This document shows positions 1 to 56,830 of a stretch of DNA of 64,000 bases, one piece after another. Numbering within the stretch: the stretch's first letter is position 1; each line of letters opens with the position of its first letter. This DNA is from Costus lasius. Lineage: Eukaryota; Streptophyta; Magnoliopsida; Zingiberales; Costaceae. The translations under genes and the position numbers were made by a program. Location: assembly GCA_027563935.2 (NCBI GenBank), contig CM050451.1, forward strand, positions 101,211,565 through 101,275,564, read 5' to 3'. Under the pieces are notes generated by a model. It searched no databases. It was not told where the DNA came from and saw nothing but the letters and a program-made list of their open reading frames with translations.

Positions 1-1166
1 TCTCCAAAGTTACGAGTTGGATATGACATATCCCAACTTAATGAAGTATACCACTTAGTGCTTGTCTCCATGGGTCTACACACATTGCTGTGCACTAGAT
101 CCAACAAGCATCTAACCTCTCTTTCCTTCCTAAATGAAGGTAGCATCCGTCATCTTGTTCATTAGACAAGGCTCACATATATCATTACCCTGAAAGGATA
201 ATGATCCCAATAGTCCATGAACTTTTGGATGTGACTTTTGTCTTGTGGCCCAAGAGACAATGCAAAGAGATGGTATTGATTGAATCATTGGATTTGATCT
301 ATTCAGTGTTACACATAGAACTACAAGCTATTATCAATTGTACTACTACTTTAGAACATTCCAGATTTAAAGAAATACCAATTTATTTCAAACTGAAAAT
401 CCATTCAAAATAATGGACATAATGTTCTAATACAAAAGCTAGTACATAATAGCAAAGTTCTAGTTGAAGTCTTTGAAGGTAGTGAGATGACATCAACAGC
501 AGCATCCAATGCTCCGTCCCTGACTCGAAAGTCGATCCCACCAAGCCTTATTGTCCTACTTCTTTTGAGCCCCTGCATATGAAAAACATATGTAAGCTCC
601 TCATGCGATACCCAGTACCCATGAATAAGAAGTAGACATGAAGACCTCAGTAACATAATACTTGAAGCAGATGGATAACATCCCTTCTTTTGTGCCATGC
701 TCTTCCTGGGCCTTAATCCATCCTGAAATTTCCATGCATTCCCAGTCTTCCAAAGTTTTAGCTTCGAAGATATGGAACCATAGTCATTCTTGGATTCAGG
801 CAAATACCCAGAAGATCCAACAACACTCTCTTGATTATTATTTGAAGTGCCCGGTGCGAAGAGACGTTGAAGATGTATGATCATATCATAAATCCCCATC
901 TCATCACACTCAACCTGGACCTTAGGGGTCATGCACCTCAAAATAAGAGCAGTGTAATGTTCACTATCCACACAATGTTCAAGATAGACATTCCACTCCC
1001 ACTCTGTACAAAAATATATACAGGGCTGGGTTGGAGGTCTTTCAAGAAGATAGATCATATTCTCATGTTCTAGAAGTTTGGACAAAAGTCTGAACCATAT
1101 TGTCCAATTTGTTCCATCCAGTTTATTTTTAAGAAGTTTCAATCTAGGTTCAGGAGATGGAATCAT
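1..1166 (-). pseudogene. Element Z: decayed copia gag/protease and start of integrase
   Basis: Ty1/copia capsid gene reading leftward from an ATG at 1166. The first ~85 codons keep the copia Gag look (LDGTNW near the start, then WxxWF and a leucine-rich helix region). After that the sequence jumps to a ruined zinc knuckle and to a protease-like stretch with MQGLKRSR followed by a relic of the LRVGNGA block; the catalytic Asp region is unrecognisable. The frame is open to 405. Positions 1-404 continue with stops and a weak relic of the integrase HxxLGH motif. Compared with the intact relatives here, the middle of Gag is missing. The ATG directly follows a TTGTAG acceptor-like site. Non-functional; the 3' part and 3' LTR of the element lie left of the window. 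Confidence 0.7.
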
Positions 1167-8633: not shown

Positions 8634-10329
8634 TGTTGGGGTATGCCCTTAAGGCTAATGTTTGAGGCCTTGGGATTGTATCAGTATCATGTAATAAACT
8701 CTTATGTTTATAAAGGCATGGTTGTTATTCAATTAGTTACATTGTCTGCTGCAATAAGTGTGCTTCTGAATAATGTCTCAAAGCTGTTCAGCTAGGCTGA
8801 CATGCTATATGTCCTTAGTCGAGATATCTTGGTGAACATGAGACAACCTTGATATGATTGAGACTAATATGTGTTTTAATCTTATAGGATGCTTTGAGCA
8901 TGGAATAAGATGTAGACTCATGGGTACATTGGATGTACTGGACAGACCCTACTAGGATATTCAATTGTTTGTCACAATGTGAATAATCCTTGAATGCTGC
9001 AAGTGGCACATGTCCTTTGACTTGAGATCACTTGTGTTTCTAAATGTTGATTGTCATTGTTTTGAGGTAGTTCAATATCATTTGAAACATAATGGTTATA
9101 GACTATCTTGGATGGTGAGCTTGAGTCAGGTTAGGGCACTAGTGATAGATAAAGGATTGCCGTCTCCTTGTTTAAGGAGTGTGATGTTCTAATGGGGCCC
9201 CCCTATGAGATGATTGAGAAAGTGTATGGCCATACCCAGGTGACTATGTTCATCTGATCTAATCATGCTCATCATATTGGAGATGCAGGCTTGACACGCT
9301 TGTCCAATAAGAACATCCAGTGGCAAAGGAAACATGTATGCCTTGTGAGTTTGATTCACACTTGTGCTGTGGTTTGGGTGTAGTCTTGGAAGACTCTTTT
9401 CTTTATATCGGGAGACAGTGATGTGTTGCTAGATACCCCTCACTGATCGTGATGACGCAAGTCATCATTACCTACATTTAAAGGAAACCCTCAGGGTCGC
9501 ACAATTTGATGATATGGCTTGCTAAGTCAGATCGTGTGGACTGAATTGTTCAGGTTCAGTTTAAAGGAGTTTAAACTCTGATTGTAAGTGAGATCTGGTC
9601 TGATCATGTTTGATTGATTAGGGCTTGAGATCGGTAAGCTTCGATTGAGAGATTTGATGCTAGATCGGTGAGATCAAGAGCATCAAAGAGATGAACGGTT
9701 AGATCTGAAACCTTAGGGTTTACTATGGTCTAGACCAAATGGCTTGAGCTATTTTGATTTGGTTTATGAACCAAATTCGATTGGGACATTTTGGCTTGAA
9801 CCGGTTCACAAATGTGAACGCTTGGTTCAATGCTATTAAGCGTTTTTGGGTTGGCATGAGCGCATGGCTTGATGATGTTCCATTTTTGGAAAGTCATCAA
9901 GGCCGATTCCTCTCAACGCCAAAACGCATATGCGTTCTCCTCTTCTCTTGTGGCTTGCTTCCTCGCTCGGAGGTAGGTGGATTAACGAGAAGAAGGGAAG
10001 GTTTTCGTCCAAGCTGAAGCTTGTTCTCGCATCTCATACTCCCTCCACGCAAGGACCCCTTGAAGCTTTGCTAGAACAAAGACGACAAGGAGAAGCCATT
10101 CCTCATCTTGCGTGCTTCATCTTTGGAGAAGATCTCATTTGATCTTTGCTTCCAAGACACCATCCAAATAGATGGCTTTGGTATGATCTTCTTTTCGATC
10201 TCCACATTCCTTAAGGTTGATCATTTGAACATATATTACATGCGATCTCATGTTGAAACCCCTTGGAAATTACATGCGCCCCCTTTAGGGTTTCAACTCC
10301 TTGCGCTCCCCCTTGAAGGCGACTCTTCA
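8634..10329 (+). repeat. 3' LTR of element A (1,696 bp)
   Basis: Starts TGTTGGGGTATGCCC and ends GACTCTTCA, before D sequence. In order it contains a TTTATAAAGG near 8709, TTTATATC near 9402, a GATGAC-GCAA-GTCATC hairpin at 9451-9466, the palindrome TGAACCGGTTCA at 9797-9808, a CArG box CCATTTTTGG at 9880-9889, and the start-exon motif ATGGCTTTG with donor GTATG at 10172-10185. No real gene inside. Confidence 0.85.
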
Positions 10330-18512: not shown

Positions 18513-18517
18513 CTAAC

Positions 18518-20196
18518 TGTTGGGGCATGCCCTTAAGGCTAATGTTTGAGGCCTTGGAATTCTATCAGTATCATGTATAAACTCTAAGTTTATAAAGGCA
18601 ATTATTGTTATTCAGGTTGTTACATTATCTGCTGCAATATGTATACTTCTGAATAATGTCTCAATGCTGTTCAGCTAGGCTGACATGCTATAAAGTCCTT
18701 AGTCGAGATATCTTGGTGAACATGAGACAGCCTTGATATGATTGAGACTAATATGTGTTCTAATCTTATAAGATGCTTCGAGCATGGAATAAGATGTAGA
18801 CTCATAGGTACATTGGATGTGCTGGACAGACCCTACTAGGATGTTCAATTGCTTGTCACAATGTGAATAATCCTTGTATGTGAACAAGTGGCATACTTCC
18901 TCTGACTTGAGATCACTTGTGTTTCTAAATGATGATTGTCATTGTTTTGAGGTAGTTCAATATCATTTGAAACATAATGGTTATAGACTATCTTGAATAA
19001 TGATCATGAGTCAGGTTAGGACACTAGTGATAGATAAAGGATTGCCGTCTCCTTGTTTAGGAGTGTGATGTTCTAAAGGGGCCCCTGGATGAGATGATTG
19101 AGAAAGTGTATGGCCATACCCAGATGACTATGTTCATCTGATCTAATCATTCTCATCATTTTGGAGTTACAAGCTTGACACGCTTGTCCAATAAGAACAT
19201 CCAGTGGCAAAGGAAACATGTATGTCTAGTGAAGTGGATTCACACTTGTGCTATGGTTTGGGTGTAGTCTTGGAAGACTCTTTCCTTTATATCGGGAGAC
19301 AGTGATGTGTTGCTAGATACCCCTCACTGATCGTGATAACGTGAGTTATCATTACCGACATTTAAAGGAAACCCTTAGGGTCGCACAATTTGATGATATG
19401 GCTTACTTAAGTCAGATCGTGTGGACTGAATTGTTTTGGTTCAGTTTAAAGGAGTTTAAACTCTGATTGTAAGTGAGATCTGGTCTGATCATGTTTGATT
19501 GATTAGGGCTTGAGATCGGTAAGCTTCGATCGAGAGTATTGATGTTAGATCGGTGAGATCAAGAGCATCAAGAGATGAACGGTTAGATCTTGAACCATTT
19601 GGTTCAATGAGATCTAAACCATGGCTTGGGCTGATTTGATTTGGTCTTTGAACCAAATGCAATTGGATCGAATTAGCTTGAACCGGTTTGTATGAGTGAA
19701 CGCATGGTTCAATGCTTGTAGGCGTTTTGGTCGGTTTTGAGATCATGGGCGCATGGCTTCATGTCATTCTATTTTTGGAATGTCATTAACGCCACTTCTT
19801 CTCAACGCCTAAACGCCTCAACTCACGTCTCTCCTCTTGTCGCCGCTTGCTCTCTTGTGTGGCGAGGTGTGTTGACGAAAGAAGAGGGATTCGGCCAAGC
19901 AAAGAAGAGTCTTTCATCTCCTCCATACGACAAGGACCCCTTGAAGCTTTGCTAGCACAAAGACGACAAGGGAGTAGCCAACTTCACCTTGTGTGCGTCA
20001 TCTAAGGAGGAGAGCCAATTCGCCCTCTTGCTTCCAAGGCACCATCCAAGCGATGGCTATGGTAAGATCACATCTTGATCTTAGTAAATCTTAAGTTGAT
20101 CATATGGTTATACCACATGCGATCTTATGAAGCCCTAGAAAATTTTGAATGCGCATGCTTTAGGGTTTCGTCCCCCCTTGCTTTAGGGGACTTTCA
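18518..20196 (+). repeat. 5' LTR of element B
   Basis: TGTTGGGGCATGCCC...GGGGACTTTCA. TTTATAAAGG lies near 18589 and TTTATATC near 19290. The GNRA-type hairpin is at 19335-19350 (loop GTGA), a TTGAACC-rich inverted repeat near 19600, and the MADS-type site CTATTTTTGG at 19769-19778. The palindrome at ~19678 is imperfect in this copy. Confidence 0.9.
20053..20066 (+). promoter_or_regulatory. LTR start-exon motif and predicted splice donor (B)
   Basis: ATGGCTATG ends at 20061 and is followed at once by GTAAG, a good 5' splice site with G at -1 and at +5. All LTR copies of the family keep ATG-GCN-(A/T)TG-GT, and the Ala codon varies only at its third base (GCT, GCC, GCA). Joined to 22021 it is in frame with gag. 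Role inferred. Confidence 0.6.
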
Positions 20197-20198
20197 AT

Positions 20199-20210
20199 TG
20201 GTATCAGAGG
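20199..20210 (+). promoter_or_regulatory. Primer-binding site of element B
   Basis: TGGTATCAGAGG two bases after the LTR; complementary to the initiator methionine tRNA 3' end over 11 bases. Confidence 0.85.
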
Positions 20211-21500
20211 TTATGGTTTCGGTATGATTCATATGATTGCTTGTTGATGTTGTGATCCTTGTTTGCGTTTGATAAGTTGATCTAGAAGTTATCATCTTGC
20301 GCATCTACATGTGAGTTTGCGAAAATACTTGATGTATGTTTTACTCATAGGCGCATGCATGATGTTTACTAGTTGCGCATGTTGAAAGTTGTTTTACTTA
20401 AAAACTTAACTTCTTGTGCGCTCCATCTAGATCTATATGCACCTGCTATAAAACCTTAGACGGGTTATTAGGGTTGAAGTCACAGTCGAGTCTAGATCCA
20501 ACCAGTCTGATCAGACCATCTGACAGCCTAGATGGGTCGACCAGATGGCACCTGTGCGCAAGCACGAGGTGGCTATAGGTCGACTGCAGACAGGCGTGTA
20601 GCAATGTCTGGTTGAGACAACCAGTGAATGCTCTTGAGTTAGGCCCGGGGTCACACCCGCTTGCCATAACTCATGAAGGTTGTTCAGCCCAAGGCGCATG
20701 CATAGTTGACCACTGGGTTGACTCAAGTCAGTTATGACTTGGTGCATGCACGGGCAGTGGATCTAACTAGACATGATGAGTGGATCCCTATTAATGGACC
20801 GTTGTAAGGTTGTAGGGCACATAAGAAAATTAAAATTGATGCCAATGTGTATTTCGAAAATTTTACGTTTCTTCATTGGATCACATGTTGGTTGAATACC
20901 ATGATGCTTGTTTATTTAATCTTATGTGGGCTGCCCATTTTAATGTGTGCTGTGCTGGGGCCTGCGAGCCTGGATTAAATTGTAAATTATTATTATTGTG
21001 ATCTGCGCATCACATTTTAATTAATTTATTGTGTAATTGACCTGCGTGTCAATCTTGTCTAGATAAATTAAATTGTAATTTTAATCAAACAAGAGCACAG
21101 AGCACACATGGCAGAGGCGCATGCAGCAGTGGCTTGACCAGGTGGGAGGTCTGGGGTTCGACCCTAGGACAGGCGCATTTACCTGGTGGGCGCACCTGAG
21201 CTGCAGTGGGCGCTAGGGCCCTGGGCTGGGCCAGACAGATGCAAAAGACCCAAGAAGAGCTCAAGTGAAGACTTAAGTTAACTTAAGGTCTTACTTAGGT
21301 TTAATGGGCTTTTACCACATAAGATCAGCATGCTTTCTACTTATTGTTTATATAATTAGAACTGCATGATTTATTCTTCTCCTATCACCATAGGATTTGA
21401 ATGATAGTAAGAAGATAAAAGACCGTTAAAATCCAACGCTAAAATATCAAGCTCGTAAGCCTTCTGACGCGAAACCTCACTGTTCTGACTATCGTTGGGG

Positions 21501-21947
21501 CCGTGTTGTACCCACTCAGTGGGCACGCCCATCTATCTTCAGACGGTGTGTGATTACACCTGCGTGTTACAGAGAAGGGATTTATCGCTTCTCGTTGCTC
21601 AGCATAGCACGTGGTGGTCCAGGGAGTAGGTCAGGTCAGCTTGACCATGTTGGCTGCATATGGAGCATATGTCAGCTATATGGAGGAAGCCATCTGTGGG
21701 ATCAGAGACTGTGTTGTACCAACTCAGTTGGCACAGTCTGCTGGATTGCCCAGATGAAGGGGAATCGCACGGGTTGGCGATTGGCAGGGACTGCCTTCCA
21801 GAAATTAGTGCTTGTACTCTCTGTGCATCTTATCTCGCCTGAGCGGGACGCGGAGACCAAGTATGAAATCTGGATCCCATCTCACTAAAAGAGTTTTACT
21901 CTTTCGGGCTGTTTTGCTGGATTTTTCAGCCAGATAAAATAGTGAGA
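21501..21947 (+). ncRNA. Element B structured leader: three hairpins and a branched fold
   Basis: Module 1 (21501-21530): CGTG/CACG outer stem, UUGUA bulge, CCCAC-UCA-GUGGG. Module 2 (21709-21736): CUGUG/CACAG outer stem, UUGUA bulge, CCAAC-UCA-GUUGG. Module 3 (21819-21855): CUCUGUG/CGCGGAG outer stem, 5' bulge, CUCGC-CUGA-GCGGG. Branched fold (21880-21947): UCUCACUA/UAGUGAGA closes AAAGAGU-UUU-ACUCUUU and GGCUG/CAGCC. Modules 1 and 2 are paralogous, with compensatory stem changes. Possible packaging, dimerisation or splicing control element; function unknown. Confidence 0.55.
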
Positions 21948-22020
21948 AAAAGAATCTTTCTTAAGTCCTGGATTGATTCTAAACATTGATACTGACCTTG
22001 CTGTTCTTGCATTGTTGTAG

Positions 22021-25000
22021 ATTACTGCAACAACGAACACCACGAATTTCAATGTGCGATCCCTACTAGAAAGGGAGAAGTTTGCTGGGCCAAACTTCTC
22101 AAACTGGTACGGACACCTTAAGATTGTTCTTAAGGCAGAGAGGAAACTGTATGTCCTCGAGACGGCTATACCGCCTCAACCCGCTCCGAACGCCGCAAGG
22201 GCGGTTCGGGATGCTTATGAAAAGCATGTCAATGATAGCATTGATGTCGCTTGCTTGATGCTTGCGTCTATGACGCCAGAGCTGCAGCGTCAGCATGAGG
22301 ATCTATCTGCTATAGAGATTATAGCGAACCTCATGCTGCTGTATGCTGCACAGGCGAGGACTTAACGCTATAATTTGACTAAGCTTTTCTTTCAGAGCAA
22401 ACTGGCTGAAGGGAGTCCAGTGGGAGCTTACGTACTCAAGATGATTGGGTACAAAGAGGCTCTAGAGAAACTGGGACATACCATCAATCAGGAGCTTACT
22501 GTTGACATTATCCTGCAGTCTCTCCCAGCCTCTTTCGATCCGTTCATCATTAACTTTAATATGAACAAGATCGACTGTACGCCGGCGGAGTTACTGAACA
22601 TGCTCTTGACTACAGAGTTAACTCTAAAGGGAAAGCCTTCAACCTCTGTCTTGATGGTTCCTTCCAGGAACAAGAAGAAGGGGAAGAAGGGCAAAGCCCC
22701 TGTCAAGAGCTATAGCAAGGCTCTGAAACAAAAGGTTAAGCGGTCGAAGGAATACAGATGTTTCCACTGTGGCCAGCTGGGTCACTGGAAAAAGAACTGT
22801 AAAGCGCTCCAAGGAGACAAGAAGGGAAGCATCGCTTCTGGCTCAGGTATATTTGTGACTGAAGTCATGATATCTTCTTCTTCTATTTCATGGGTGTTGG
22901 ACACTGCATGTGGAGTTCACATTTGTTCAAATGTACAGGAACTCAAGAGAAGAAGACAGGTGGGACAGCATGAGGTGGACCTACGAGTTGGAAACGGGGC
23001 ACGGGTTGCTGCTGTTGCTGTAGGAGAATATCACATCTCATTACCATCTGGATTTGTATTAGAATTGAACAATTGTTATTTTGTACCTAGCATAACGAAA
23101 AATATTATCTCTATTCCTGCTCTTGTCAGGAAAGGGTTTTCCTTTGAATGCAATATTTCAAAGTGTGTTATTTCTTATGATAATATTGTTTATGCTACTG
23201 GATCAATTAACAATGGGTTATTCATGTTGGACATAGAATGTTCTATACAAAATATTGATAATAAGAAAGCCAAGTATGCTGATGACAGCACCTTGCTATG
23301 GCATAGTCGTTTAGGCCATATTAACAAGAAACGCATTAAGCGGTTGCATGATCATGGACTGCTGGGATCATTCTCCTATGAGGAGATTGATACATGCAAA
23401 GCTTGTTTAATGGGTAAAATGACGAAGGCTCCTTTTCTTCACAAAGGTCAAAGGGCTTCAGGTTTACTTGACCTTATACACAGTGATGTGTGTGGGCCAT
23501 TTAGTAAACATGCCAGAGGTGGCTATCTATACTTCATTACCTTTACTGATGATTTCAGTAGGTATCGATATGTCTATCTGATGAGACATAAAAGTGAATC
23601 TTTTGACAAGTTCAAAGAGTTCAAAAATGAAGTACAAAATCAGCTAGGCCGGAATATCAAGGCACTTCGCTCAGATCGAGGTGGAGAATACTTGAGTCGA
23701 GAGTTTACTGACTATCTAAAGGAGTGTGGGATTGTCTCACAGCTCACTCCGCCAGGAACACCGCAATGGAATGGTGTGTCCGAGAGGAGGAACAGAACCT
23801 TACTGGATATGGTTCGTTCAATGATGAGTCAGGCTACTCTACCTTACTCCTTTTGGGGATTTGCACTGGAAACAGCTGCAAAGGTACTAAACCGAGTGCC
23901 ATCCAAGGCAGTTTCAAAGACTCCATATGAGTTATGGTATAGGAAACAGCCGAGCTTGACATTTATTAAGATCTGGGGTTGCGAGGCTTATGTTAAAAAG
24001 CTCACCTCTGGGAAACTAGAGAGCAGATCTGAGAAATGTATCTTTGTCGGTTACCCTAAGGAAACTAAGGGTTATTATTTCTACGATCCCAAAGAGAACA
24101 AGGTATTTGTTACTCGGACGGCTATTTTTCTTGAGAAGGAGTTTCTTCTGCAAGAGGCCAGTGGGAGAGAAATAAAGCTGGATGAGAATCCAGAAGAAGG
24201 ACAAAGTAGTCAAGCACAGTTGGATGAGCCTGAGCCAGTTGATCAGGTTATTGAACAACCTGAGGCTCAGATATCACGGGAACCGCGAAGATCGGGAAGA
24301 ATCCGTCGACAGCCTGAGCGCTATGACGGAGTTTACATCATTGATCATGATGAACCCCTTGTAAGGTTCCCCTTCAAGGGGGAGCGAGATACCCTAAGGT
24401 AAGTACCCCTTTCAAGAGGGGGGCGCAAGTGACCTTTCTTTTTTTTTCGCAGCGGAATTAGGGTTTCACATTTGATCGCATGCTATACATTCATATGATC
24501 AACTTAAACATCAAGTGAAAGATGCGTTACCATGGCCATGAGAAGGAGGCGGCTTGGAAGCAAAGACCAAGAGAGATCTTCTCCACAAGTGACGCACACA
24601 AGAAGAGAGATGGCTTCTTCTTGTTGATCTTTGTGCTAGCAAAGATCTTCAAGTGTCCTTGCCGAATGGAAGGGATGAGGAGATGATAGCTTGGCTGAGA
24701 GTTCTTGTTTTCGTCAACACCTTCTCCCTTCGAGAGTGCAAGCAAAACTCGTCTCTCTTGTCTTCGAAACCGTGAGGGAGATAGAGCTCATCAAATGAAA
24801 GAAACGGTTACCATTAATGTGTAACCCCCTTCATTAATGCCTCCTTAATTCCATGCGTTCACCCTATGTGAACCAACCGAAAACCCCTCTAAATTGAACC
24901 AATTGTTCACCCTTGTGAACCGGTTCAATTAGGTTTGGTTCAAAGACCAATTAACCCAAGCCACTTGGTCTAGATCATATTAAACCCTAAGGTTCCAGAT

Positions 25001-27664: not shown

Positions 27665-29344
27665 TGTTGGGGTATGCCCTTAAGGCTAATGTTTGAGGCC
27701 TTGGAATTCTATCAGTATCATGTATAAACTCTAAGTTTATAAAGGCAATTATTGTTATTCAGGTTGTTACATTATCTGCTGCAATATGTATACTTCTGAA
27801 TAATGTCTCAATGCTGTTCAGCTAGGCTGACATGCTATAAAGTCCTTAGTCGAGATATCTTGGTGAACATGAGACAGCCTTGATATGATTTAGACTAATA
27901 TGTGTTCTAATCTTATAAGATGCTTCGAGCATGGAATAAGACGTAGACTCATAGGTACATTGGATGTACTGGACAGACCCTACTAGGATGTTCAATTGCT
28001 TGTCACAATGTGAATAATCCTTGTATGTGAACAAGTGGCATACTTCCTCTAACTTGAGATCACTTGTGTTTCTAAATGATCATTGTCATTGTTTTGAGGT
28101 AGTTCAATATCATTTGAAACATAATGGTTATAGACTATCTTGGATAATGATCATGAGTCAGGTTAGGACACTAGTGATAGATAAAGGATTGCCGTCTCCT
28201 TGTTTAGGAGTGTGATGTTCTAAAGGGGCCCCCTGGATGAGATGATTAAGAAAGTGTATGGCCATACCCAGATGACTATGTTCATCTGATCTAATCATTC
28301 TCATCATTTTGGAGTTACAAGCTTGACACGCTTGTCCAATAAGAACATCCAGTGGCAAAGGAAACATGTATGTCTAGTGAAGTGGATTCACACTTGTGCT
28401 ATGGTTTGGGTGTAGTCTTGGAAGACTCTTTCCTTTATATCGGGAGACAGTGATGTGTTGCTAGATACCCCTCACTGATCGTGATAACGTGAGTTATCGT
28501 TACCGACATTTAAAGGAAACCCTTAGGGTCGCACAATTTGATGATATGGCTTACTTAAGTCAGATCGTGTGGACTGAATTGTTTTGGTTCAGTTTAAAGG
28601 AGTTTAAACTCTGATTGTAAGTGAGATCTGGTCTGATCATGTTTAATTGATTAGGGCTTGAGATCGGTAAGCTTCGATCGAGAGTATTGATGCTAGATCG
28701 GTGAGATCAAGAGCATCAAGAGATGAACGGTTAGATCTTGAACCATTTGGTTCAATGAGATCTAAACCATGGCTTGGGTTGATTTGATTTGGTCTTTGAA
28801 CCAAATGCAATTGGATCGAATTAGCTTGAACCGGTTTGTATGAGTGAACGCATGGTTCAATGCTTGTAGGCGTTTTGGTCGGTTTTGAGATCATGGGCGC
28901 ATGGCTTCATGTCATTCTATTTTTGGAATGTCATTAACGCCACTTCTTCTCAACGCCTAAATGCCTCAACTCACGTCTCTCCTCTTGTCGCCGCTTGCTC
29001 TCTTGTGTGGCGAGGTGTGTTGACGAAAGAAGAGGGATTCGGCCAAGCAAAGAAGAGTCTTTCATCTCCTCCATACGACAAGGACCCCTTGAAGCTTTGC
29101 TAGCACAAAGATGACAAGGGAGTAGCCAACTTCACCTTGTGTGCGTCATCTAAGGAGGAGAGCCAATTCGCCCTCTTGCTTCCAAGGCACCATCCAAGCG
29201 ATGGCTATGGTAAGATCACATCTTGATCTTAGTAAATCTTAAGTTGATCATATGGTTATACCACATGCGATCTTATGAAGCCCTAGAAAATTTTGAATGC
29301 GCATGCTTTAGGGTTTTGTCCCCCCTTGCTTTAGGGGACTTTCA
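27665..29344 (+). repeat. 3' LTR of element B (1,680 bp)
   Basis: TGTTGGGGTATGCCC...GGGGACTTTCA, followed by the CTAAC duplication. Hairpin at 28483-28498, CTATTTTTGG at 28917-28926, and ATGGCTATG-GTAAG near 29202-29215. Differs from the 5' copy by about 15-16 changes and one indel by eye. Confidence 0.9.
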
Positions 29345-29349
29345 CTAAC

Positions 29350-33211: not shown

Positions 33212-33893
33212 CATAATATTGTTTGGGAGATGCGTACGTCGATACTATGTATCGGGGCGTAGTTCCTCAATATTATTACAATAATGCTTGTAACAATTTA
33301 TGAATCTTGAAATAAAATAAATATTCAATAAAAGAATATTTATTGAAGCAATTAAATCAAATAAATATTCAATGAAGAATATTTATTGAAGAAATAAAAT
33401 CAAATAAATATTCAATGAAAGAATATTTATCGAAGAAATAAAGTCAAATAAATATTCAGTGAAAGAATATTTATTCAAGAAATGAAATCAAATAAATATT
33501 CAATGAAAGAATATTTATCGCAGAAATGAAGTCAAATAAATATTCAGTGAAAGAATATTTATTGAAGAAATGAAATCAAATAAATATTCAATGAAAGAAT
33601 ATTTATCGAAGAGATGAAATTAGATAAATATTCAATGAAAGAATATTTATCGAAGAGATGAGATCAGATAAATATTCACAAAAAGAATATTTATCGAAGA
33701 AAGATGAAATCAAATAAATATTCAATGAACGAATATGTATTGAAGGAATGAAAATTGAAATTAGATAAATATTCACAAGAAAGAATATTTATCGAAAAGA
33801 TGTCATGGCATATTGTTAATAATATTGTTTGGGAGGTGCGTATGTCGATACTAGGTATCGGGGCGTAGTTCCTCAATATTATTATAATATTGC
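33212..33893. repeat. Array of ~11 AT-rich stem-loops between duplicated blocks
   Basis: ATAAATATTC, a 6-8 base spacer and GAATATTTAT recur about every 43-51 bases from 33317 to ~33795. Each unit is itself an inverted repeat with a 10-bp stem. On each side stands a ~75-bp block (33212-33291 and 33816-33893) containing GGGGCGTAGTTCCTCAATAT and a CGATAC-TA(T/G)-GTATCG hairpin. Looser units follow to ~34080. Confidence 0.8.
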
Positions 33894-35574: not shown

Positions 35575-37213
35575 TGTTGAGGTATGCCCTTAAGGCTAAT
35601 GTTTGAGGCCTTGGGTTATTTTCAGTATCATGTATAAACTATAATATGTTTTATAAAGGCAATGGTTGTTATTTAGGTTGTTACATTATCTGCTGTTGTT
35701 ATGTATACTTCTGAATAATGTCTCAATGATGTTCAGCTTAGCTGACATTCAGAGTTGTCCTTAGTCGAGATATCTTGGTGAACATGAGATAGCCTTGATA
35801 TGATTAAGACTAATATGTGTTCTAATCTTATAGAATGCTTCGAGCATGGAATAAGATTTAGACACATAGGTACATTGGATGTACTGGACTGACCCTAATT
35901 AGGATATTCAATTGTTTGTCACAATATGGATATTCCTTATAAACAAGCAAGTGGTATATTCCCTCTGACTTGAGATCACTTGTGTTTCTAAGTGATGATT
36001 GGCATTGTCTTGAGGTAGTTCAATATCATTTGAAATATAATGGTTAAGGATTATCTTGGATAATGAGCATGAGTCATGTTAGGACACTAGTGATAGATAT
36101 AGGATTGCCTCTCCTAGTTGGAGTGTGATGTTCATAAGGGGCCCCCTGGATGAGATGGTTGAGAAAGTGTATGGCCATACCCAGATGACTATGTTCATCT
36201 GATCTAACCATTCTCATCATGTTGGAATTACAGGCTTGACACGCTTGTCCAATGAGAACGTCCAGTGGCAAAGGGATAATGTATACCGAGTGAATTGGAT
36301 TCACACTTGTGCTATGGTTTGGGTGTAGTCTTGGAAGACTCTTTCCTTCATATTGGGAGACAGTGATGTGTTGCTAGATACCCCTCTCTGATCGTGATAA
36401 CGTAAGTTATCGTTACCGACATTGAAGGACACCCTTAGGGTCGCACAATTTGATGATATGGCTTACTTATGTCAGATCGTGTGGACTGAATTATTCTAGT
36501 TCAGTTTAAAGTAATTTAAACTCTGATTGGAAGTGAGATCTGGTTTGATCATGTTTGATTGATTAGGGCTTGAGATCGGTAAGCTTCGATCGAGAGAATT
36601 GATGCTTGATCGTAGAGATCAAGAGGGTCAAGAGATGTGTGGTTAGATCTTGAGCCATTTGGTTCAAAGAGATCAAGACCATGGCTGGTTCGGTTTGGTC
36701 TTTGAACCAAATAGAATTGAACCGGTTCACTTGGTGAATGCATGGTTCAATTGAGAGAGGAGTTATTGATGGCTTCAAGTGGAGTTAAACATGGAGTTAT
36801 GGACTTACTATTTTTGGAAGACGTTTTCTTTGAGGAAACGCCCCCACGTTCGAACGCCTATCTCTCTCTCGCCTCTTCTCCTCTTGGGTAGATCATCTTC
36901 ACGAGAAGAGGAATTTCGGCCAGCCAAAGAAGAAGTCTCATCTCCTCCTACACGATCAAGGACACCTTGGATCTTTGCTAGCACAAGGACTACAAGGAAG
37001 AAGTCATCAACTTCTTGTGTGTGACTCCTTTGGAGAAGAGTCGCTCGCCCTTTCTTCTTCCAAGTCGCCGCTCAAAAACAATGGCAATGGTAATGCATCA
37101 TTATCCTTTCATGGTTGATTATATGTACATGCCATGCGATCTTCATGAAACCTAGTTTTTCGCCTATGCAAAAACCCCTAGAAGCGCATGTGACCTAGGT
37201 TTCACCCCTTTCA
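35575..37213 (+). repeat. 5' LTR of element E (1,639 bp)
   Basis: TGTTGAGGTATGCCC...CACCCCTTTCA. GNRA-type hairpin 36396-36411 (loop GTAA), TGAACCGGTTCA 36718-36729, CTATTTTTGG 36808-36817, and start-exon ATGGCAATG at 37081-37089 followed by GTAAT. Confidence 0.9.
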
Positions 37214-37215
37214 AT

Positions 37216-37227
37216 TGGTATCAGAGC
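37216..37227 (+). promoter_or_regulatory. Primer-binding site of element E
   Basis: TGGTATCAGAGC, complementary to the initiator methionine tRNA end, two bases after the LTR. Confidence 0.85.
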
Positions 37228-38501
37228 TAGGGTTTTTTTGGCTTGATACATATGATCGCCATTTTGTTGTGATCCATGTTTGTTATATGCGTTGGATAGA
37301 TCTTCATGAAGTCATGCGAAAAATACATGCTATAAGTTAGATGTATTTTGTTTTCAATTAAGCTTGCGCATGCATGAATTTGGTTTGCGCTTGTGATGAA
37401 AGTTTTCAATCAAAAACATAACATCTTGCGCGCCCCCTCACTTAGATCTATCTAAGTGCCTGCTTTAAACTCTTAGACGGGTTAACAGTGTTAAAAATCA
37501 TTAGTCAAGTCTGGACCCAACAGCCTAATCAGACCATCTGATAGCCTAGATGGGTCGGCCAGATAGCACCTGTGCGCAAGCAATACAGGTGGCTATAGGT
37601 CGACTGCAAAAGGGCGTGTAGCGATGTCTGATTGAGGCGCTTAGTGAACGATCATGATTAAGGCCCGGGGTCACACCCGCTTGCCAGAAATCATGTGGGA
37701 CGTTCAGCCCTTAAGGCATGCATAGCTGACCACAAGGTCGACGCAAGTCAGTTATGACTGGGTGCATGCAAGGGCAGTGGGTCTGACTTGATCTAACGAG
37801 TGGATACATGTTAATGGACCGTTGTAAGGCAGTAGGGCTCATAAGGAAATAAAATTGATGCCATGGCGTTTTTTCAAAAATTTTATTTTCTGATTGGATC
37901 ACATGTATGCATGTCTAACATGAATGGGTGTTTATTTAATCTTATGTGGGCTGCCCTTAATTTGTGTGCTGTGCTGGGGCCTGCGTGCCTGGAATTAATT
38001 TATAAATTATGCTGTGATCTGCGAATCACACTTTAATTTATGAAAGTTGTATAATTGACCTGCGAGTCAAATCATGTCTAGATAGATTAAAATGTAATTT
38101 AATCAGACATGAGCACAGAGCACACATGGCAGAGGCGCTTGCAGCAAGAGGCTTCACCAGGTGGGAGGTCTAGAGTTCGACTCTAGAACAGGCGCATACT
38201 GCCTGGAGGGCGCTTTGGCCCGGGCTGGGCCAGATGAAGTGCAAAAGTCCCATAAAGAGCTCAAGTGAAGACTTATGTAAAATTAGGGTTTTACTTAGGC
38301 TTTTATAGGCGTTTACCACATAAGATGATTGTGCTTTCTACTTACTGTTTTAAGTAATATTAGCACAAGCATTTTTTTTCTGCTATCACCATAGATTTTG
38401 CATGATAGTAAGAAGATAAAAAGGACCATTAAAATCCAACGACAATATCAAGCTCGATTGCCTTCTGACGCGAAACCTCACTGTTCTGACTATCGTTGGG
38501 G

Positions 38502-38948
38502 CCGTGTTGTACCCACTCAGTGGGCACGCCCAGCTATCTTCAGACGGTGCGTGATTACACCAACATGCTACAGAGAAGGGATTTATCGCTTCTCGTTGCT
38601 CAGCATAGCACGTGGTGGTCCAGGGAGTAGGTCAGGTCAGCTTGACCATATAGGCTACATATTGAGCATATGATAGCTATATGGAGGCAGCCATCTAAGG
38701 AATCAGAGACTGTGTTGTACCAACTCAGTTGGCACAGTCTTCTGGATTGCCTAGATGAAGGGGAATCGCACGGGTTGGCGATTGGCATGGATAGCCTACC
38801 AGTGATTAGTGCTTGAACTCTCTGTGTATCTTATCTCGCCTGAGCGGGACGCGGAGATCAAGTATGAAATCTGGATCCCATCTCACTAAAAGAGTTTCAC
38901 TCTTTCGGGCTGTTTTATTGGATTTTTCAGTCAGATAAAATAGTGAGA
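38502..38948 (+). ncRNA. Element E structured leader region
   Basis: Same four modules as B: 38502-38530, 38710-38737, 38820-38856 and the branched fold 38881-38948. In the branched fold the second arm is GGCUG/CAGUC, with a G-U pair where B has G-C and D has A-U. Confidence 0.55.
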
Positions 38949-39019
38949 AAAGAATCACTCTTAAGTCCTGGATTGATTCTAACATGGATACTGACCTTGT
39001 TGTTCTTGATATGTTGTAG

Positions 39020-42000
39020 ATTCCTGCAGCAACGAACACCACAGGGCTCAATTTGCGATCCATATTGGAAAAGGAGAAGTTTGCTGGGCCAAACTTCTCA
39101 GACTGGTACAGACAACTTAAGATTGTTCTTAAAGCTGAGAGGAAGCTGTACGTCCTTGAGACGGCAATACCGGCTCAACCCGCTGCGAACGCCGCAAGGG
39201 CGGTTCGGGATGCTTATGAGAAGCACGTCAGTGATAGTACTGATGTCGCTTGCCTTATGCTTGCGTCAATGACGCCCGAGCTGCAGCGTCAGCATGAGGA
39301 TTTGTTTGCTATTGACATTATAGCAAATCTCAAAATGCTGTATGCTGCACAGGCAAGGACTGAACGCTATAACTTGACAAAACTTTTCTTTCATAGCAAA
39401 CTGACTGAAGGGAGTCCAGTGGGAGCTCACATGCTCAAGATGATTGGGTACAAGGAGGCTCTTGAAAAACTGGGACACACCATCAATCAGGAACTTGTTG
39501 TAGACATTATCCTGCAGTCTCTCCCGGCCTCTTTCGATCCTTTCATTATTAATTTTAATATGAATAAGATCGACTGTACTCCGGCAGAGCTACTGAACAT
39601 GCTCTGCACCACAGAGCAGACTCTTGAGAAGGGAAAGCCTTCATCCTCTGTCTTGATGGTTCCTTCAAGGAATAAGAAGAAGGGGAAGAAGGGCAAAACC
39701 CCTATCAAGAGCTACAACAAGGCTTTGAAACAAAAGGTGAAGCGGTCAAAGGACAACAGATGCTTCCATTGTGGCCAGCTGGGTCACTGGAAGAAGGACT
39801 GTAGAGCGCTCCAAGGAGAGAAGAAGGGAAGCAAGACTTTCACTTCTGGCTCAGGTATTTACGTGACTGAAGTCATGGTAGCTTCTTCTATTTCATGGGT
39901 GTTGGACACTGCATGTGGAGTTCACATTTGTTCAAATGTGCAGGAACTCAAGAAAAGAAGACAGGTGGGACAGCATGAGGTGGACCTACGAGTTGGAAAC
40001 GGGGCACGGGTTGCTGCTGTTGCTGTAGGAGAATATCGCATCTCTTTACCATCTGGTTTTGTATTAGAACTTGACAATTGTTATTTTGTGCCAAGCATAA
40101 CTAAGAATATTATCTCTATTCCTGCTCTTGTTAGGAAAGGGTTCTCTTTTGAATGCAAAACTTTAAAGTGTTGTATTTCATATGATAATATTGTTTATGC
40201 AACTAGGTCGATTAACAATGGGTTATACATGTTGAACATGGAATGTTCTGTACAACAAATTGATAACAAGAAAGCCAAGTATGCTGATGATAGCACCTTG
40301 TTATGGCATAGTCGTTTAGGCCATATTAACAAGAAGCGCATTAAGCGGTTGCATGACTATGGACTGCTGGGATCATTCTCCTATGAGGAGCTTGATACAT
40401 GCAAAGCTTGTTTAATGGGTAAAATGACGAAGACTCCTTTTACTAATAAAGGTGAAAGGTCTTCAGGTTTACTTGACCTTATTCACAGTGATGTGTGTGG
40501 GCCGTTTAGTAAACATGCCAGAGGTGGCTATTCATACTTCATTACTTTTACTGATGATTTCAGTAGGTATGGTTATGTCTATCTAATGAGACATAAGAGT
40601 GAATCTTTTGACAAGTTCAAAGAGTTCAAAAATGAAGTACAAAATCAGTTAGGCTGAAATATCAAGGCACTTCGTTCAGATCGAGGTGGAGAATACTTGA
40701 GTCGAGAGTTTACTGACTATCTGAAGGAGTGTGGGATTATCTCACAGTTCACTCCACCAGGAACACTGCAATGGAATGGTGTGTCCGAGAGGAGAAATAG
40801 AACCTTATTGGATATGGTTCGTTCAATGATGAGTCAGGCTACTCTACCTTACTCCTTTTGGGGATTTGCATTGGAAACAGCTGCAAAGGTGCTAAACCGT
40901 GTGCCATCCAAGGCCGTTTCAAAGACACCATTTGAGTTATGGTATGGGAAACAGCCGAGCTTGACATTTATCAAAATCTGGGGTTGCGAGGCTTATGTCA
41001 AAAAACTCGCCTCTGGGAAACTGGAGAGCAGATCAGATAAATGTATCTTTGTCGGTTACCCTAAAGAAACTAAGGGATATTATTTCTTCGATCCCAAGGA
41101 GAACAAAGTATTTGTTGCTCGAACGACTATTTTTCTTGAGAAGGAATTTCTTCTGCAAGAGGCCAGTGGGAGAGAAATAAAGCTGGATGAAATTCCAGAA
41201 GAGGGACAAAGTAGTCAAGCTCAGTTGGATGAGCTTGAGCCAATAGAACAGGTTAATGTTCAACCTGAGGCTCAGATATTACGGGAACCGCGTAGATCGG
41301 GAAGGATCCGTCGTCTGCCTGAGCGCTATGACGGAGTCTACATCATTAATGATGAACCTCTCACTTATGCGGATGCGGTCAGTGGACTGGAGTTAGTAAG
41401 ATGGCTTGAAGCTATGCGAGTCGAGATGGACTCCATGTCAGATAACCAAGTCTAGGATTTGGTTGATCCGCCTCCGGGAGTAATCCCTATAGGCTGTAAG
41501 TGGATCTTCAAAAGGAAGAAAGACATGGATGGTAACATAATTACCTATAAGGGCAGGCTAGTTGCGAAAGGTTTCAAACAAATCTACGGGATAGATTATG
41601 ATGAAACTTTCTCTCCTGTGGCCATGTTCAAGTCCATTCGAATTATTCTCGCGATAGCAGCATATTATGATTATGAGATCTGGCAAATGGATGTGAAGAC
41701 CGCTTTCCTTAATGGAAAATTGGAAGAGGATGTGCATATGACACAACCTGAAGGTTTCATTAATCCATCAGAACGTCATAAGATATGCAAATTAAAGAAG
41801 TCCATTTATGGACTTAAACAAGCATCAAGAAGCTGGAATATTCGTTTTGATGAATTGGTTTGTGAATTTGGTTTCATCAAAAATGAAGATGACCCGTGTA
41901 TATATAAAAGGTTAGTGGGAGCGTGATTACTTTCCTAGTCCTCTACGTCGATGATATCTTGATCATTGGAAACGATATTCCTGAACTGCATGCGGTCAAG

Positions 42001-46194: not shown

Positions 46195-46207
46195 TTCCTC
46201 CCCCCTT
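46195..46207 (-). promoter_or_regulatory. Polypurine tract of element F
   Basis: Minus strand AAGGGGGGAGGAA immediately before the 3' LTR. Confidence 0.8.
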
Positions 46208-46223
46208 AAAAAGCTTTAGTCCT

Positions 46224-49200: not shown

Positions 49201-50810
49201 CCACTAGCAAGTAACTTCCTGGCCTGCAGGAAAGATATCACATGCGGTCCTTGGTCTGACACTAGACCTCTCACAAAAAGCCGATTCCCATCTAGCAGAT
49301 TCAAGGTGATTATTTTCTCAAAGCAATCCACAGTGGCATGATGTGAGGATAACCAATCCATACCTAGGATGACATCATAGTCTTGCATGTCTAAGAGGAT
49401 TAGATCTACAAGAAACTCATAACCCTCTACATGCACTACACAATCAGCACAAACAGTGTCTGTAGATAATGATTTTCCTAAGGGAGTACTTACAGACACA
49501 ACATAATTCAGCACCTTAGGTAACACAGGTAAACATGCAGCAAATTTAACAGATACAAAAGATAAATTTGCACCAGCTAACTGATCAAATACAAATAAGG
49601 TACCTTCCACGACGGATCGGGAAGCTCGTGTATCCTTCTCAGCCACAGCATAAACTCGGGTCTGAACTGTAGGCTTATCTGTGCCTCTATGCTGCATCTC
49701 CGGCTCTTTGCAGTCCTTGACCATGTGTCCAGGCTTCTTACACCTGAAACATACACCATTCTTCTTATAACAGTCTTTCATTAGATGTCCCTTGAGCCCA
49801 CAATAATTACAATTCCGGTCCTCTGTGATACTGTTCTTTACATCCCTGGCATCCCTGAACTGCTGCGGTGCATCCCTGGACTGCTGCGGTGCCTTGTAAG
49901 AGTAAGGCTTATACCTGCTCTTCTTGTAGTCCTTATGTTTAGGGTACTTCTTACCCTTGCCGCCATTACCATACTGAGGAGCCGCCGCCTCAGCTGCAGG
50001 AACCACCGTCACGGCCACATTAGAACTCCTCTCTGATATATACCTCTCAATAGTGCGTGCTCGCCCAACAGTCTCAACATACGTCTCCAAGTGCTGAGCA
50101 CCAACCTGCTCCCTAATGTCCCATCTGAGACCTCTGAGAAACTTGGTAGCCCTCCTCTTTTCAGTGTTTATCAGGTGAGGAGCATACTTTCCCAATTTAG
50201 TGAACTGCAACTCATACTGGTCCACAGTCATATCACCCTGCTCCAGGTGAATAAATTCCACCTCTCGGTCCTCCACCAAGCTATCAGGGAAATACTTCTC
50301 GTTGAATTGAGACAAGAAGTAGGGCCAATCTACTGTTTCATGTCTTTCTGCAGCTAACCTCACCACGCCCTTCCACCACTCATCTGCGTCACCACGCATC
50401 ATGTAGGTGGCCAGACACAGCTTGTCCTCATCTGAGCAGCGCATGACTTGAAAAATCTTTTCCAAACATAACTGCCAGTTCTCTGCATTACTTGATTCTG
50501 AGCCCCCATAAAAAGAGCTAGGACCCAGTTTCTGGAATTCACTCACAAGTGAGGCATAGCGCATGTGAGTGTCCTCCTGAGAGTCAGTCCCCACTCCTCG
50601 AGTAGTAGTCTGAGATATCTCCTGAGTCAATTGCTGCAAGAGCTGCTATTGAGCTTCTTGATGTTGAGTCTGTTGCTGCTGCAGCATCTGAGCTTGCCTC
50701 TCTATCATGGCACCCTGTTGCTGTACCATGCCTGTCAGAGCCTCAATAGCCCTTGAGAAATTCGGGGGCTGCTCATCCTCGCCGCTAGCATTTCCTCTAG
50801 TTCGCACCAT
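46224..50810 (-). CDS. Element F Gag-Pol polyprotein with one amber codon
   Basis: Starts MVRTRGN at 50810; a TAG at 50648-50646 (codon 55) replaces a probable CAG in a Gln-rich stretch. After it the frame is open to 46224. Order: Gag capsid ([24 protein letters not shown]), basic linker, two CX2CX4HX4C knuckles (about 49770-49812 and 49711-49752), then a protease region ending in [15 protein letters not shown] follows with FIDD at 48567-48578, then RNase H ([16 protein letters not shown]). Integrase has the HH-CC finger (CLTC) and D, D, E catalytic blocks ([22 protein letters not shown]). GPF-type and chromodomain-like ends ([16 protein letters not shown]) follow, which place it in the chromoviruses, best match Tekay/Del. 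The protease lacks the expected D-S/T-G-A motif near 49573-49590. Confidence 0.9.
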
Positions 50811-50921
50811 CTTAAGTTCCTTCACACACATACCACAGTAAGGAAATCAAACATAAACCTATCAGGTGTCTAGCAATACACAAACATGTTTTCCCCCGAA
50901 CTAAGTTTTAGCTAGCCAACT
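50811..50921 (-). other. Short untranslated leader of element F
   Basis: About 110 bases between primer site and MVRTRGN; nothing else seen. Confidence 0.6.
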
Positions 50922-50933
50922 CCTCTGATACCA
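50922..50933 (-). promoter_or_regulatory. Primer-binding site of element F
   Basis: Minus strand TGGTATCAGAGG, three bases inside the LTR; initiator methionine tRNA type. Confidence 0.85.
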
Positions 50934-50936
50934 TTC

Positions 50937-53817: not shown

Positions 53818-55095
53818 CTTATAAACAAGCAAGTGGTATATTCCCTCTGACTTGAGATCACTTGTGTTTCTAAGTGATGATTGGCATTGTCTTGAGGTAG
53901 TTCAATATCATTTGAAATATAATGGTTAAGGATTATCTTGGATAATGAGCATGAGTCATGTTAGGACACTAGTGATAGACATAGGATTGCCTCTCCTAGT
54001 TGGAGTGTGATGTTCATAAGGGGCCCCCTGGATGAGATGGTTGAGAAAGTGTATGGCCATACCCAGATGACTATGTTCATCTGATCTAACCATTCTCATC
54101 ATGTTGGAATTACAGGCTTGACACGCTTGTCCAATGAGAACGTCCAGTGGCAAAGGGATCATGTATACCGAGTGAATTGGATTCACACTTGTGCTATGGT
54201 TTGGGTGTAGTCTTGGAAGACTCTTTCCTTCATATTGGGAGACAGTGATGTGTTGCTAGATACCCCTCTCTGATCGTGATAACATAAGTTATCATTACCG
54301 ACATTGAAGGAAACCCTTAGGGTCGCACAATTTGATGATATGGCTTACTTATGTCAGATCGTGTGGACTGAATTGTTCTAGTTCAGTTTAAAGTAATTTA
54401 AACTCTGATTGAAAGTGAGATCTGGTCTGATCATGTTTGATTGATTAGGGCTTGAGATCGGTAAGCTTCGATCGAGAGAATTGATGCTTGATCGTAGAGA
54501 TCAAGAGGGTCAAGAGATGTGTGGTTAGATCTTGAGCCATTTGGTTCAAAGAGATCAAGACCATGGCTGGTTCAGTTTGGTCTTTGAACCAAATAGAATT
54601 GAACCGGTTCACTTGGTGAACGCATGGTTCAATTGAGAGAGGAGTTATCGATGGCTTCAAGTGGAGTTAAACATGGAGTTATGGACTTACTATTTTTGGA
54701 AGACGTTTTCTTTGAGGAAACGCCCCCACGTTCGAACGCCTATCTCTCTCTCGCCTCTTCTCCTCTCGGGTAGATCATCTTCACGAGAAGAGGAATTTCG
54801 GCCAGCCAAAGAAGAAGTATCATCTCCTCCTACACGATCAAGGACACCTTGGATCTTTGCTAGCACAAGGAGTACAAGGAAGAAGCCATCAACTTCTTGT
54901 GTGTGACTCCTTTGGAGAAGAGCCGCTCGCCCTTTCTTCTTCCAAGTCGCCGCTCAAAAACAATGGCAATGGTAACGCATCATTATCCTTTCATGGTTGA
55001 TTATATGTACATGCCATGCGATCTTCATGAAACCTAGTTTTTCGCCTATGCAAAAACCCCTAGAAGCGCATGTGACCTAGGTTTCGCCCCTTTCA
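53818..55095 (+). repeat. 3' LTR of element E, right part
   Basis: Resumes with the duplicated CTTAT and runs to CGCCCCTTTCA, followed by GTTCA. Hairpin at 54278-54293 (loop ATAA), TGAACCGGTTCA at 54600-54611, CTATTTTTGG at 54690-54699, ATGGCAATG-GTAAC at 54963. Without the duplication the two parts total 1,639 bp, exactly the 5' LTR length. Confidence 0.92.
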
Positions 55096-55139: not shown

Positions 55140-56830
55140 TGTTGGGGTATGCCCTTAAGGCCAATGTTTGAGGCCTTGGGATTGTATCAGTATCATGTAT
55201 AGACTTTTATGTTTATAAAGGCAATGGTTGTTATTCAGCTTGTTACATTATCTGCAGCAATAAGTGTACTTCTGAATAATGTCTCAATGCTGTTCAGCTA
55301 GGCTGACATGCAGTTAAGTCCTTAGTCGAGATATCTTGGTGAACATGAGACAGCCTTGATATGATTGAGACTAATATGTGTTCTAATCTTATAGGATGCT
55401 TATAGCATGGAATAAGATGTAGACTCATAGGTACATTGGATGTACTGGACAGACCCTACTAGGATATTCAATTGCTTGTCACAATGTGAATAATCTTTGA
55501 TTGTAACAAGTGGCACATTTCCTCTGACTTGAGATCACTTGTGTTTCTAAATGATGATTGTCATTGTTTTGAGGTAGTTCAATATCATTTGAAACATAAT
55601 GGTTATAGACTATCTTGGATGGTGAGCTTGAGTCATGTTAGGGCACTAGTGATAGATATAGGATTGCCGTCTCCTTGATTGGAGTGTGATGTTCTATAGG
55701 GGCCCCCTGGATGAGATGATTGAGAAAGTGTATGGCCATACCCAGGTGACTGTGTTCATCTGATCTAATCATGCTCATCATATTGGAGCTATAAGCTTGA
55801 CACGCTTGTCCAATAAGAACATCCAGTGGCAAAGGAAACTTGTTTGCCTAGTGAATTGGATTCACACTTGTGCTGTGGTTTGGGTGTAGTCTTGGAAGAC
55901 TTTTTTCTTTATATCGGGAGACAGTGATGTGTTGCTAGATACCCCTCACTGATCGTGATGACGTAAGTTATCGTTACCGACATTTAAAGGAAACCCTCAG
56001 GGTCGCACAATTTGATGATATGGCTTACTTAAGTCAGATCGTATGGACTGAATTGTTCAGGTTCAGTTTAAAGGGATTTAATCTCTAATTGTAAGTGAGA
56101 TCTGGTCTGATCATGTTTGATTGATTAGGGCTTGAGATCGGTAAGCTTCGATTGAGAGAATGGATGCTAGATCGGTGAGATCAGGAGCATCAAGAGATGA
56201 ACGGTCAGATCTTAAGCCTTAGGGGTTTATTGTAATCTGGACTAGTTGCTTGGTTTATTTGGTTTTGAACCAAATTGATTTGAACCAGCTCATTGGATGA
56301 GCGCATGGTTCAAGTGAAGAGGCATTGGCGATTGGGGTGAAACATGGTCGCATGAACGTTTGGACTTTGCTATTTTTAGATAGCATGTTCTCAAACGTGA
56401 CCACATCTCACATTCACGCCAAGAGAGTTCTTCTCTCATCTCTCACCCTCTCGACGCCACAAGAGACTTTCGACGCTTGCACACTTGCGTGTGAAGAAGT
56501 TGACGAGAAGAGGAGGAATCGCCAAGCTGAAGTTTTTCTCATCCCTTCCATTCGACAAGGACACCTTGGATCCTTGCTAGCACAAGGAACGCCAAAGGGA
56601 GTAGGCGACATCAATTGTGTGCGCATCCTCTAGAGGAGACCCCTGTCGATCTCTGCTTCCCAGACACCACTCAATCGATGGCCATGGTATGATCCATTCT
56701 TGTTTTATACAAGTTATTGTGAGTTAATCATATGACATGTGTTCGATTCTTTTGAAACCCTAAATTCCGCTATGAAATTTATTTGCGCCACTCATAAGGG
56801 TTTCGCCCCCTTAGATTTAGGGGACTTTCA
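55140..56830 (+). repeat. Solo LTR H of family 1 (1,691 bp)
   Basis: TGTTGGGGTATGCCC...GGGGACTTTCA with TACTT at 55135-55139 and 56831-56835. It splits the acidic linker of G. Hairpin 55957-55972 (GATGAC-GTAA-GTTATC, one G-U pair), a MADS-type site CTATTTTTAG at 56370-56379, and ATGGCCATG followed by GTATG near 56678. Confidence 0.92.

Follow-up and report, generated by a model that had tools for sequence, protein, structure and literature searches.

Here we report that, in a family of Ty1/copia long terminal repeat (LTR) retrotransposons of Costus lasius (family 1), the gag start codon appears to be encoded within the LTR and to be supplied to gag by splicing, with the primer-binding site (PBS) removed by the same splice. 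We put the probability of this reading at about 0.87. The family was analysed in a 64,000 nt stretch of the genome (C6:101211565–101275564, hereafter the window), which contains elements B, D and E, all of this one family and with LTRs of approximately 1.68 kb, and in genome-wide searches covering 1.28 Gb. Family 1 is very abundant, the host genome carrying thousands of copies of it. Its sequence features, their phase and their conservation are real and far beyond chance, and from them we infer that splicing separates the mRNA from the genome RNA. A preliminary description of this DNA had proposed the LTR-coded start, for which we found support in a codon-type constraint on ATG-GCN, a G^GTR donor (^ marks the exon–intron border), a branch motif and an acceptor, all in phase. 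It overlooked the position of the PBS inside the candidate intron, the feature with the greatest consequences.

In element B, the 5′ LTR (18518..20196, plus strand; TGTTGG...TTTCA) contains a coding mini-exon, ATG GCT ATG (Met-Ala-Met), with the proposed gag start codon, at 20053..20061, followed by GTAAGA. The candidate leader intron, GTAAGA...TTGTAG, extends over 1,959 nt (20062..22020), and gag exon 2 (22021..22362) is open as far as an in-frame TAA at 22363–22365, by which the gag of B is broken. Element D, on the minus strand, has the mini-exon ATG GCT TTG at 13704–13696 and a candidate intron of 1,997 nt at 13695–11699; element E, on the plus strand, has ATG GCA ATG at 37081..37089 and a candidate intron of 1,930 nt at 37090..39019. 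All three joins are in phase 0. These mini-exons, intron coordinates, lengths and phases reproduced the preliminary description to the base. It had also taken the different intron lengths as independent tests of the phase, an argument that fails because phase is unaffected by intron length; the lengths of B, D and E (0, 2 and 1 modulo 3, respectively) instead indicate that the stretch is not coding.

The same mini-exon and donor are present in the 3′ LTR of B (27665..29344, plus strand; mini-exon at 29201–29209), and mini-exons were likewise located in LTR A, a 3′ LTR (ATG GCT TTG, 10172..10180, plus strand), LTR C (ATG GCC ATG, 24531..24539, minus strand), the 3′ LTR of E, which is split by a nested element (ATG GCA ATG, 54963..54971, plus strand), and LTR F (ATG GCC ATG, 56678..56686, plus strand). 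Thus, ATG-GCN-[A/T]TG^GTA was present in all eight LTR copies of the window. The earlier statement that the mini-exon varies only at the alanine wobble base and by an ATG/TTG change is correct for these eight LTRs; across the genome, codon 3 is also CAG, TCG or ACG.

The 5′ splice site of B lies 135 nt upstream of the LTR end (20196), and the PBS, TGGTATCAGAG (20199–20209, plus strand), which we take to be of the initiator tRNA-Met type, begins 2 nt past that end and is therefore inside the intron. At the other end, a branch-site motif, TACTGAC (21990..21996, plus strand), precedes the TTGTAG acceptor (22015–22020), of which the TAG (22018..22020) is the 3′ splice site and, in unspliced RNA, also an in-frame stop directly before gag. 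B, D and E all have GT-AG ends and the branch motif, with no AG between that motif and the acceptor. Two sites with such a branch motif were detected in each of the three leaders, and the acceptor used here is the more U-rich one. Taken together, these signals support a candidate spliceosomal leader intron.

How well the mini-exon is conserved was assessed in an alignment of 29 LTR ends: the eight window LTRs, 14 genome copies selected by gag, and seven copies picked by similarity to the LTR end of B, these seven not being blind to the mini-exon (genome copies are given as L numbers; L064 was excluded from the LTR ends). The gag-selected copies were fetched, 20 in all, without regard to the LTR, and 14 were kept; L040, L046, L053, L054, L056 and L057, with no PBS in range, were left out. 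The sequence ATGGC was present in 29/29 aligned LTR ends and the 9-nt mini-exon in 28/29; for the gag-selected copies, blind to the LTR, the counts were 14/14 and 13/14. When the 28 distinct LTR ends were placed on a parsimony tree, the A, T, G, G and C of ATG-GCN required no change at any position, while the alanine wobble base changed eight times; the three bases of codon 3 changed six, one and zero times, and the G-T-A of the donor did not change. The background was a mean of 2.95 changes over 244 well-filled columns, 54 of which were unchanged. A fixed ATG-GC, a free wobble base and a fixed GTA are the signature of an initiation codon plus an alanine codon with a 5′ splice site directly behind them. 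In L042 and L049, the sequence is ATG-GCA-CAG^GTAATA/C, encoding Met-Ala-Gln.

The acceptor was then compared among copies in which both ends of the candidate intron are readable (n=29: three in the window, 14 of the 20 gag-selected, four of the eight similar to the LTR end of B, and all eight of an LTR-selected set). The LTR-selected copies were chosen for diverse LTR ends from a list of 6,154 matches (below), gag not being looked at in the choice; L060, L062, L063 and L064, interrupted before gag, were left out of the acceptor counts. A phase-0, 9-nt mini-exon was found in 28 of the 29 copies, a TAG acceptor in 27 and both in 26. All eight LTR-selected copies carry TTGTAG 1,930–1,952 nt from the donor, followed by gag in phase 0. 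When only the end not used for selection is counted, the mini-exon was present in 13/14 copies and the acceptor in 12/12 (four similar to the LTR end of B and eight LTR-selected). In addition, 51 distinct gag starts were collected (57 matches minus six antisense artefacts). TACTGAC, TATTGAC or TACTAAC was present at all 51; 48 have the TAG acceptor and three have TTGTTG, lost acceptors being over-represented in this set because most of it came from a joined-sequence pattern (below) that ranks TTGTTG copies first. As a separate observation, four TTGTTG copies among the matches listed lie on C3 and C230.

Genome-wide, exact matches were counted to a pattern of ATGGCNNNGGT followed after 105–134 nt by TTGGTATCAGAG. 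The 9-nt form, mini-exon plus PBS, gave 6,154 matches, which partly mirror recent bursts of near-identical copies and are not independent. The same pattern read backwards gave no match in the genome; the versions with a 10-nt and an 8-nt mini-exon gave none and one, respectively, and ACG in place of ATG gave five. The rarity of these one-step decay forms indicates that most of the 6,154 copies are young. Base composition was taken from the first 100 of the 6,154 matches, all on contig C1 and comprising 31 distinct 17-mers. Among these, donor position +3, which is free in the pattern, was a purine in 100/100 (88 A, 12 G); the alanine wobble base was A in 42, T in 41, C in 10 and G in seven; and codon 3 was ATG in 66, TTG in 20, TCG in 12 and ACG in two. 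A second ATGGCTCAG^GT in L058, at 5836, sits 3′ of the gag start and was taken as chance.

Next, we consider translation. A TATA-like sequence, CTATTTTTGG (19769..19778, plus strand), is the putative core promoter of B, and 10 of the 19 LTRs inspected have CTATTTT 272–308 nt 5′ of the mini-exon. The ATG-free run 5′ of the LTR ATG measures 63–315 nt, being at least 200 nt in 13 of the 19. Given this run and the upstream CTATTTT motif, the RNA probably has the ATG of the LTR as its first AUG. For the eight window LTRs, the frame that this AUG would open in unspliced RNA is 4 to 36 codons long, and the leader introns of B, D and E hold 48–54 ATGs in addition to the TAG before gag, which makes translation of gag from unspliced RNA by scanning unlikely. 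The predicted spliced Gag in the window begins with Met-Ala-[Met/Leu], continues with Ile-[Pro/Thr]-Ala and runs into a conserved copia motif. A Met-Ala start at most 16 residues before the same motif is found in 63 of the 120 related Gag proteins listed, these being compared as protein records, and the mini-exon would therefore give the usual beginning of a Gag. When predicted proteins were searched for spliced products of the family, the best identity among the 120 relatives listed from the protein database was 62%, and no close family protein was among them.

DNA copies of the joined sequence were also sought, using a pattern limited to one exon-2 form and Met/Leu at codon 3, which gave 2,614 genome matches at up to three mismatches, listed from the fewest mismatches upward. 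No DNA copy of the spliced junction with 0–1 mismatches to the pattern was present in the genome, the best match listed having two, and a spliced copy with three mismatches could sit beyond the matches listed. Every junction match listed was an unspliced acceptor or a mutated TTGTTG one. The lack of a joined copy at 0–1 mismatches is as expected if the spliced RNA is not reverse-transcribable.

Conservation within the leader peaks in a foldable segment of 480 nt (21493..21972, plus strand) at the 3′ end of the intron, with which it would be excised. Among 17 copies, its mean pairwise identity is 94–96% per 60-nt block, compared with 85–91% at the gag start and 43–63% in the surroundings of the LTR end. 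It folds more strongly than its shuffled versions (z −4.25 in B and −1.8 to −5.5 in six other copies); 28 of 3,042 pair cells were broken, and a few two-sided changes were present. Folding is as strong elsewhere (for example, z −7.7 for gag 22175–22424), and the idea that structure sets the intron apart was rejected, since other leader windows and gag fold equally. We guess that the segment may be a packaging, export or splicing-control RNA. The search of known RNA families gave one match only, to mir-133, far under the cut-off and taken as chance. Two look-alike hairpins, CCCAC-TCA-GTGGG (21511–21523) and CCAAC-TCA-GTTGG (21719–21731), were noticed in the conserved segment.

Besides the limits of the genome counts, the junction search and the folding given above, several observations weigh against an LTR-coded start. 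The donor is good but moderate in strength, and some GTs of the leader outdo it: 8/137 candidates in B, 21/119 in E and 8/130 in D have a better match to the U1 complement. The mini-exon of L051 is 10 nt long and out of frame; the zero of the 10-nt version of the genome pattern, obtained at the 105–134 nt spacing, lacks a positive control, the 10-nt exon of L051 itself lying outside that spacing. The acceptor has been lost (TTGTTG for TTGTAG) in L039 and L044, whose LTR mini-exon is intact. Lastly, an in-frame ATG occurs within the first 14 codons of exon 2 in 10 of the 51 gag starts, at codon 8 in nine and at codon 5 in two, D having both. The preliminary description had concluded that B and E lack a start codon unless spliced; this stands, neither having an in-frame ATG within that stretch of exon 2, and does not extend to D or to six of the eight LTR-selected copies, which have the codon-8 ATG.

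These ATGs are the basis of one alternative, in which the leader is spliced and Gag starts at the exon-2 AUG of codon 8, the LTR ATG being incidental or opening a short upstream frame. A Gag beginning there would start near the start of related Gags. We regard this as improbable, since 41 of the 51 gag starts, including those of B and E, have no AUG in the first 14 codons, and since the fixed ATG-GCN with its free wobble and the kept 9-nt phase would be left unexplained; moreover, the copies with the codon-8 ATG retain the mini-exon, although they were picked for having it. Still less probable is that no splicing takes place, Gag being made on full-length RNA through internal or non-AUG initiation and the resemblance to splice signals being chance or a relic. 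In its favour, the splice sites are predicted here from DNA sequence, the donor is of moderate strength, and plant LTR elements are described in a review as generally lacking introns (PMC12786077). Against it stand the in-frame TAG directly before gag in 48 of 51 copies, the approximately 50 AUGs upstream of gag, and the fact that diverged subfamilies conserve both splice ends together and in exact phase. The least credible alternative takes the ATGGCNNNG^GTA block not for a coding exon but for a conserved sequence that serves the LTR as a DNA or promoter element. It does lie in a partly conserved stretch of the LTR, with a near-invariant TTCCAAG approximately 17–23 columns upstream, but it changes as codons do (the wobble is free and codon 3 varies as NNG), it is followed by a 5′ splice site, and an in-phase acceptor lies approximately 2 kb further on in all eight LTR-selected copies.

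The LTR-coded, spliced start of gag would operate as follows. LTR-driven RNA would start approximately 250 nt upstream of the mini-exon, and the gag start codon would lie near the 3′ end of the LTR in a 9-nt coding exon, Met-Ala-Xaa. The spliceosome would join this exon to gag in phase 0, excising a leader of 1.7–2.0 kb; in the joined RNA, the LTR AUG would come first and Gag(-Pol) would be translated. As the donor is upstream of the LTR end, the PBS and the conserved 3′ leader segment would leave with the intron. Without the LTR end and the PBS, usual reverse transcription of the spliced RNA is not expected, so that this RNA would be translatable and not normally reverse-transcribed. The unspliced RNA would be replicable, its first AUG opening a short dead-end frame, followed by approximately 50 AUGs and a stop before gag. 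We lean, with clearly less confidence than for the start codon itself, towards splicing as an obligate switch: only the spliced RNA would have the gag start codon, only the unspliced RNA would have the PBS and the conserved segment (possibly for packaging), and each molecule would be mRNA or genome, never both. As a by-product, every LTR, solo LTRs included, would be a portable promoter–ATG–splice-donor cassette able to give chimeric host proteins a Met-Ala-Xaa start.

Family 1 belongs to the Ty1/copia LTR retrotransposons. Its LTRs have TG...CA ends and 5-bp target-site duplications, CTAAC for B (18513–18517 and 29345–29349) and GTTCA for E. In E, gag exon 2 onward is an open frame (39020..40657, plus strand) with a copia-type gag domain, zinc knuckle, Pol beta-barrel domain and gag_pre-integrs; the domain order is copia-type, the integrase region preceding the reverse transcriptase (PF14223, PF00098, PF22936, PF13976, then PF25597, the integrase core lying outside the scan), and the Pfam scan placed PF07727 (RVT_2) in the 3′ part of B. 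The two LTRs of B are unlike at 15 of 1,679 sites, 13 of these being transitions, indicating that B is young. Among LTR ends of the genome, several score nearly equally (92–93% to B, many on C3; L007, L008 and L059–L064), suggesting recent amplification of a single subfamily. The 3′ LTR of E is interrupted by a nested element of a different family (43314–53817), with 2.88-kb terminal repeats 99.7% identical and a minus-strand open reading frame (ORF) of 1,471 aa; no such mini-exon was noticed in it, its own gag start being the only region looked at. Elsewhere in the window, a tandem array with a 44-bp unit lies at 33331–33746 (152-nt stretches are 69–100% alike at 44-nt steps), and two ORFs, 405–1166 (minus strand, 253 aa) and 57574–58245 (plus strand, 223 aa), had no Pfam match. 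A decayed plastid matK fragment had its best matches in Coelia and Galanthus (73 and 70%; both Asparagales), too distant to identify the host, and over the reverse-transcriptase piece the Cichorium protein listed shared only 71% identity, for which reason chicory was rejected as host.

How an LTR element allots a single transcript to translation or to reverse transcription is an enduring question, and a major one according to the abstract on the BARE elements. If the reading proposed here is true, a single splicing event gains the start codon and loses the primer site, and this division is written into the anatomy of family 1. It would also place an intron upstream of gag; up to 2005, the authors on the soybean element Diaspora knew no report of such an intron (PMC1142308). 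Annotation that expects gag itself to begin with an ATG would then go wrong for a family of thousands of copies. Host genes would, moreover, have a ready supply of new first exons in thousands of LTRs with promoter, start codon and donor.

Splicing is known in other LTR elements, of which Ogre belongs to Ty3/gypsy and in this differs from family 1. A plant-element survey mentions the Ogre intron (PMC6317226), and the likeness is that splicing of a plant LTR-element RNA sets what is translated (PMC6317226, PMC12786077); the 2025 review that describes plant LTR elements as generally without introns names Ogre and EVADE as the exceptions (PMC12786077). Closer to family 1 is BARE1 of barley, also a plant Ty1/copia element, for which a spliced, Gag-only RNA and separate RNA pools are described, splicing helping to keep translated and replicated RNA apart (PMC3735527). 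There, however, a 104-nt intron at the end of gag yields the Gag-only mRNA (PMC3735527), whereas the candidate intron of family 1 lies upstream of gag, holds the PBS and would supply the start codon. EVADE of Arabidopsis, again Ty1/copia, makes a spliced short Gag RNA, shGAG, which is the RNA mostly translated (PMC8892269, PMC12786077). Splicing in EVADE cuts the protease region after gag, and the full-length RNA still encodes Gag-Pol. The nearest in layout is Diaspora, with predicted donors in the LTR, predicted acceptors near gag and a long leader (PMC1142308); this is a prediction only, for a Ty3/gypsy element whose gag has its own start codon. In the CRM centromeric retrotransposons, coding sequence likewise lies within an LTR, but it is the 3′ LTR into which the polyprotein runs, and the text available does not contain the word splicing (PMC3059260). 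For Cer1 of Caenorhabditis elegans, a spliced RNA for another protein and Gag from unspliced RNA are described (PMC3315495). In the available text of open-licence papers, to which the literature search was confined, an LTR-coded gag start was not found described.

Retroviruses offer parts of the same arrangement. In foamy viruses and HTLV-1, a splice donor lies inside the LTR, upstream of the PBS, and in the avian leukosis/Rous sarcoma group env borrows the gag AUG by splicing. The spliced RNAs of such retroviruses are subgenomic (env, pol and regulatory), their Gag coming from the unspliced RNA. LTR donors and a borrowed gag AUG are thus known in retroviruses but, to our knowledge, not for the making of Gag; in family 1, by contrast with the retroviruses that have an LTR donor, Gag itself would depend on splicing.

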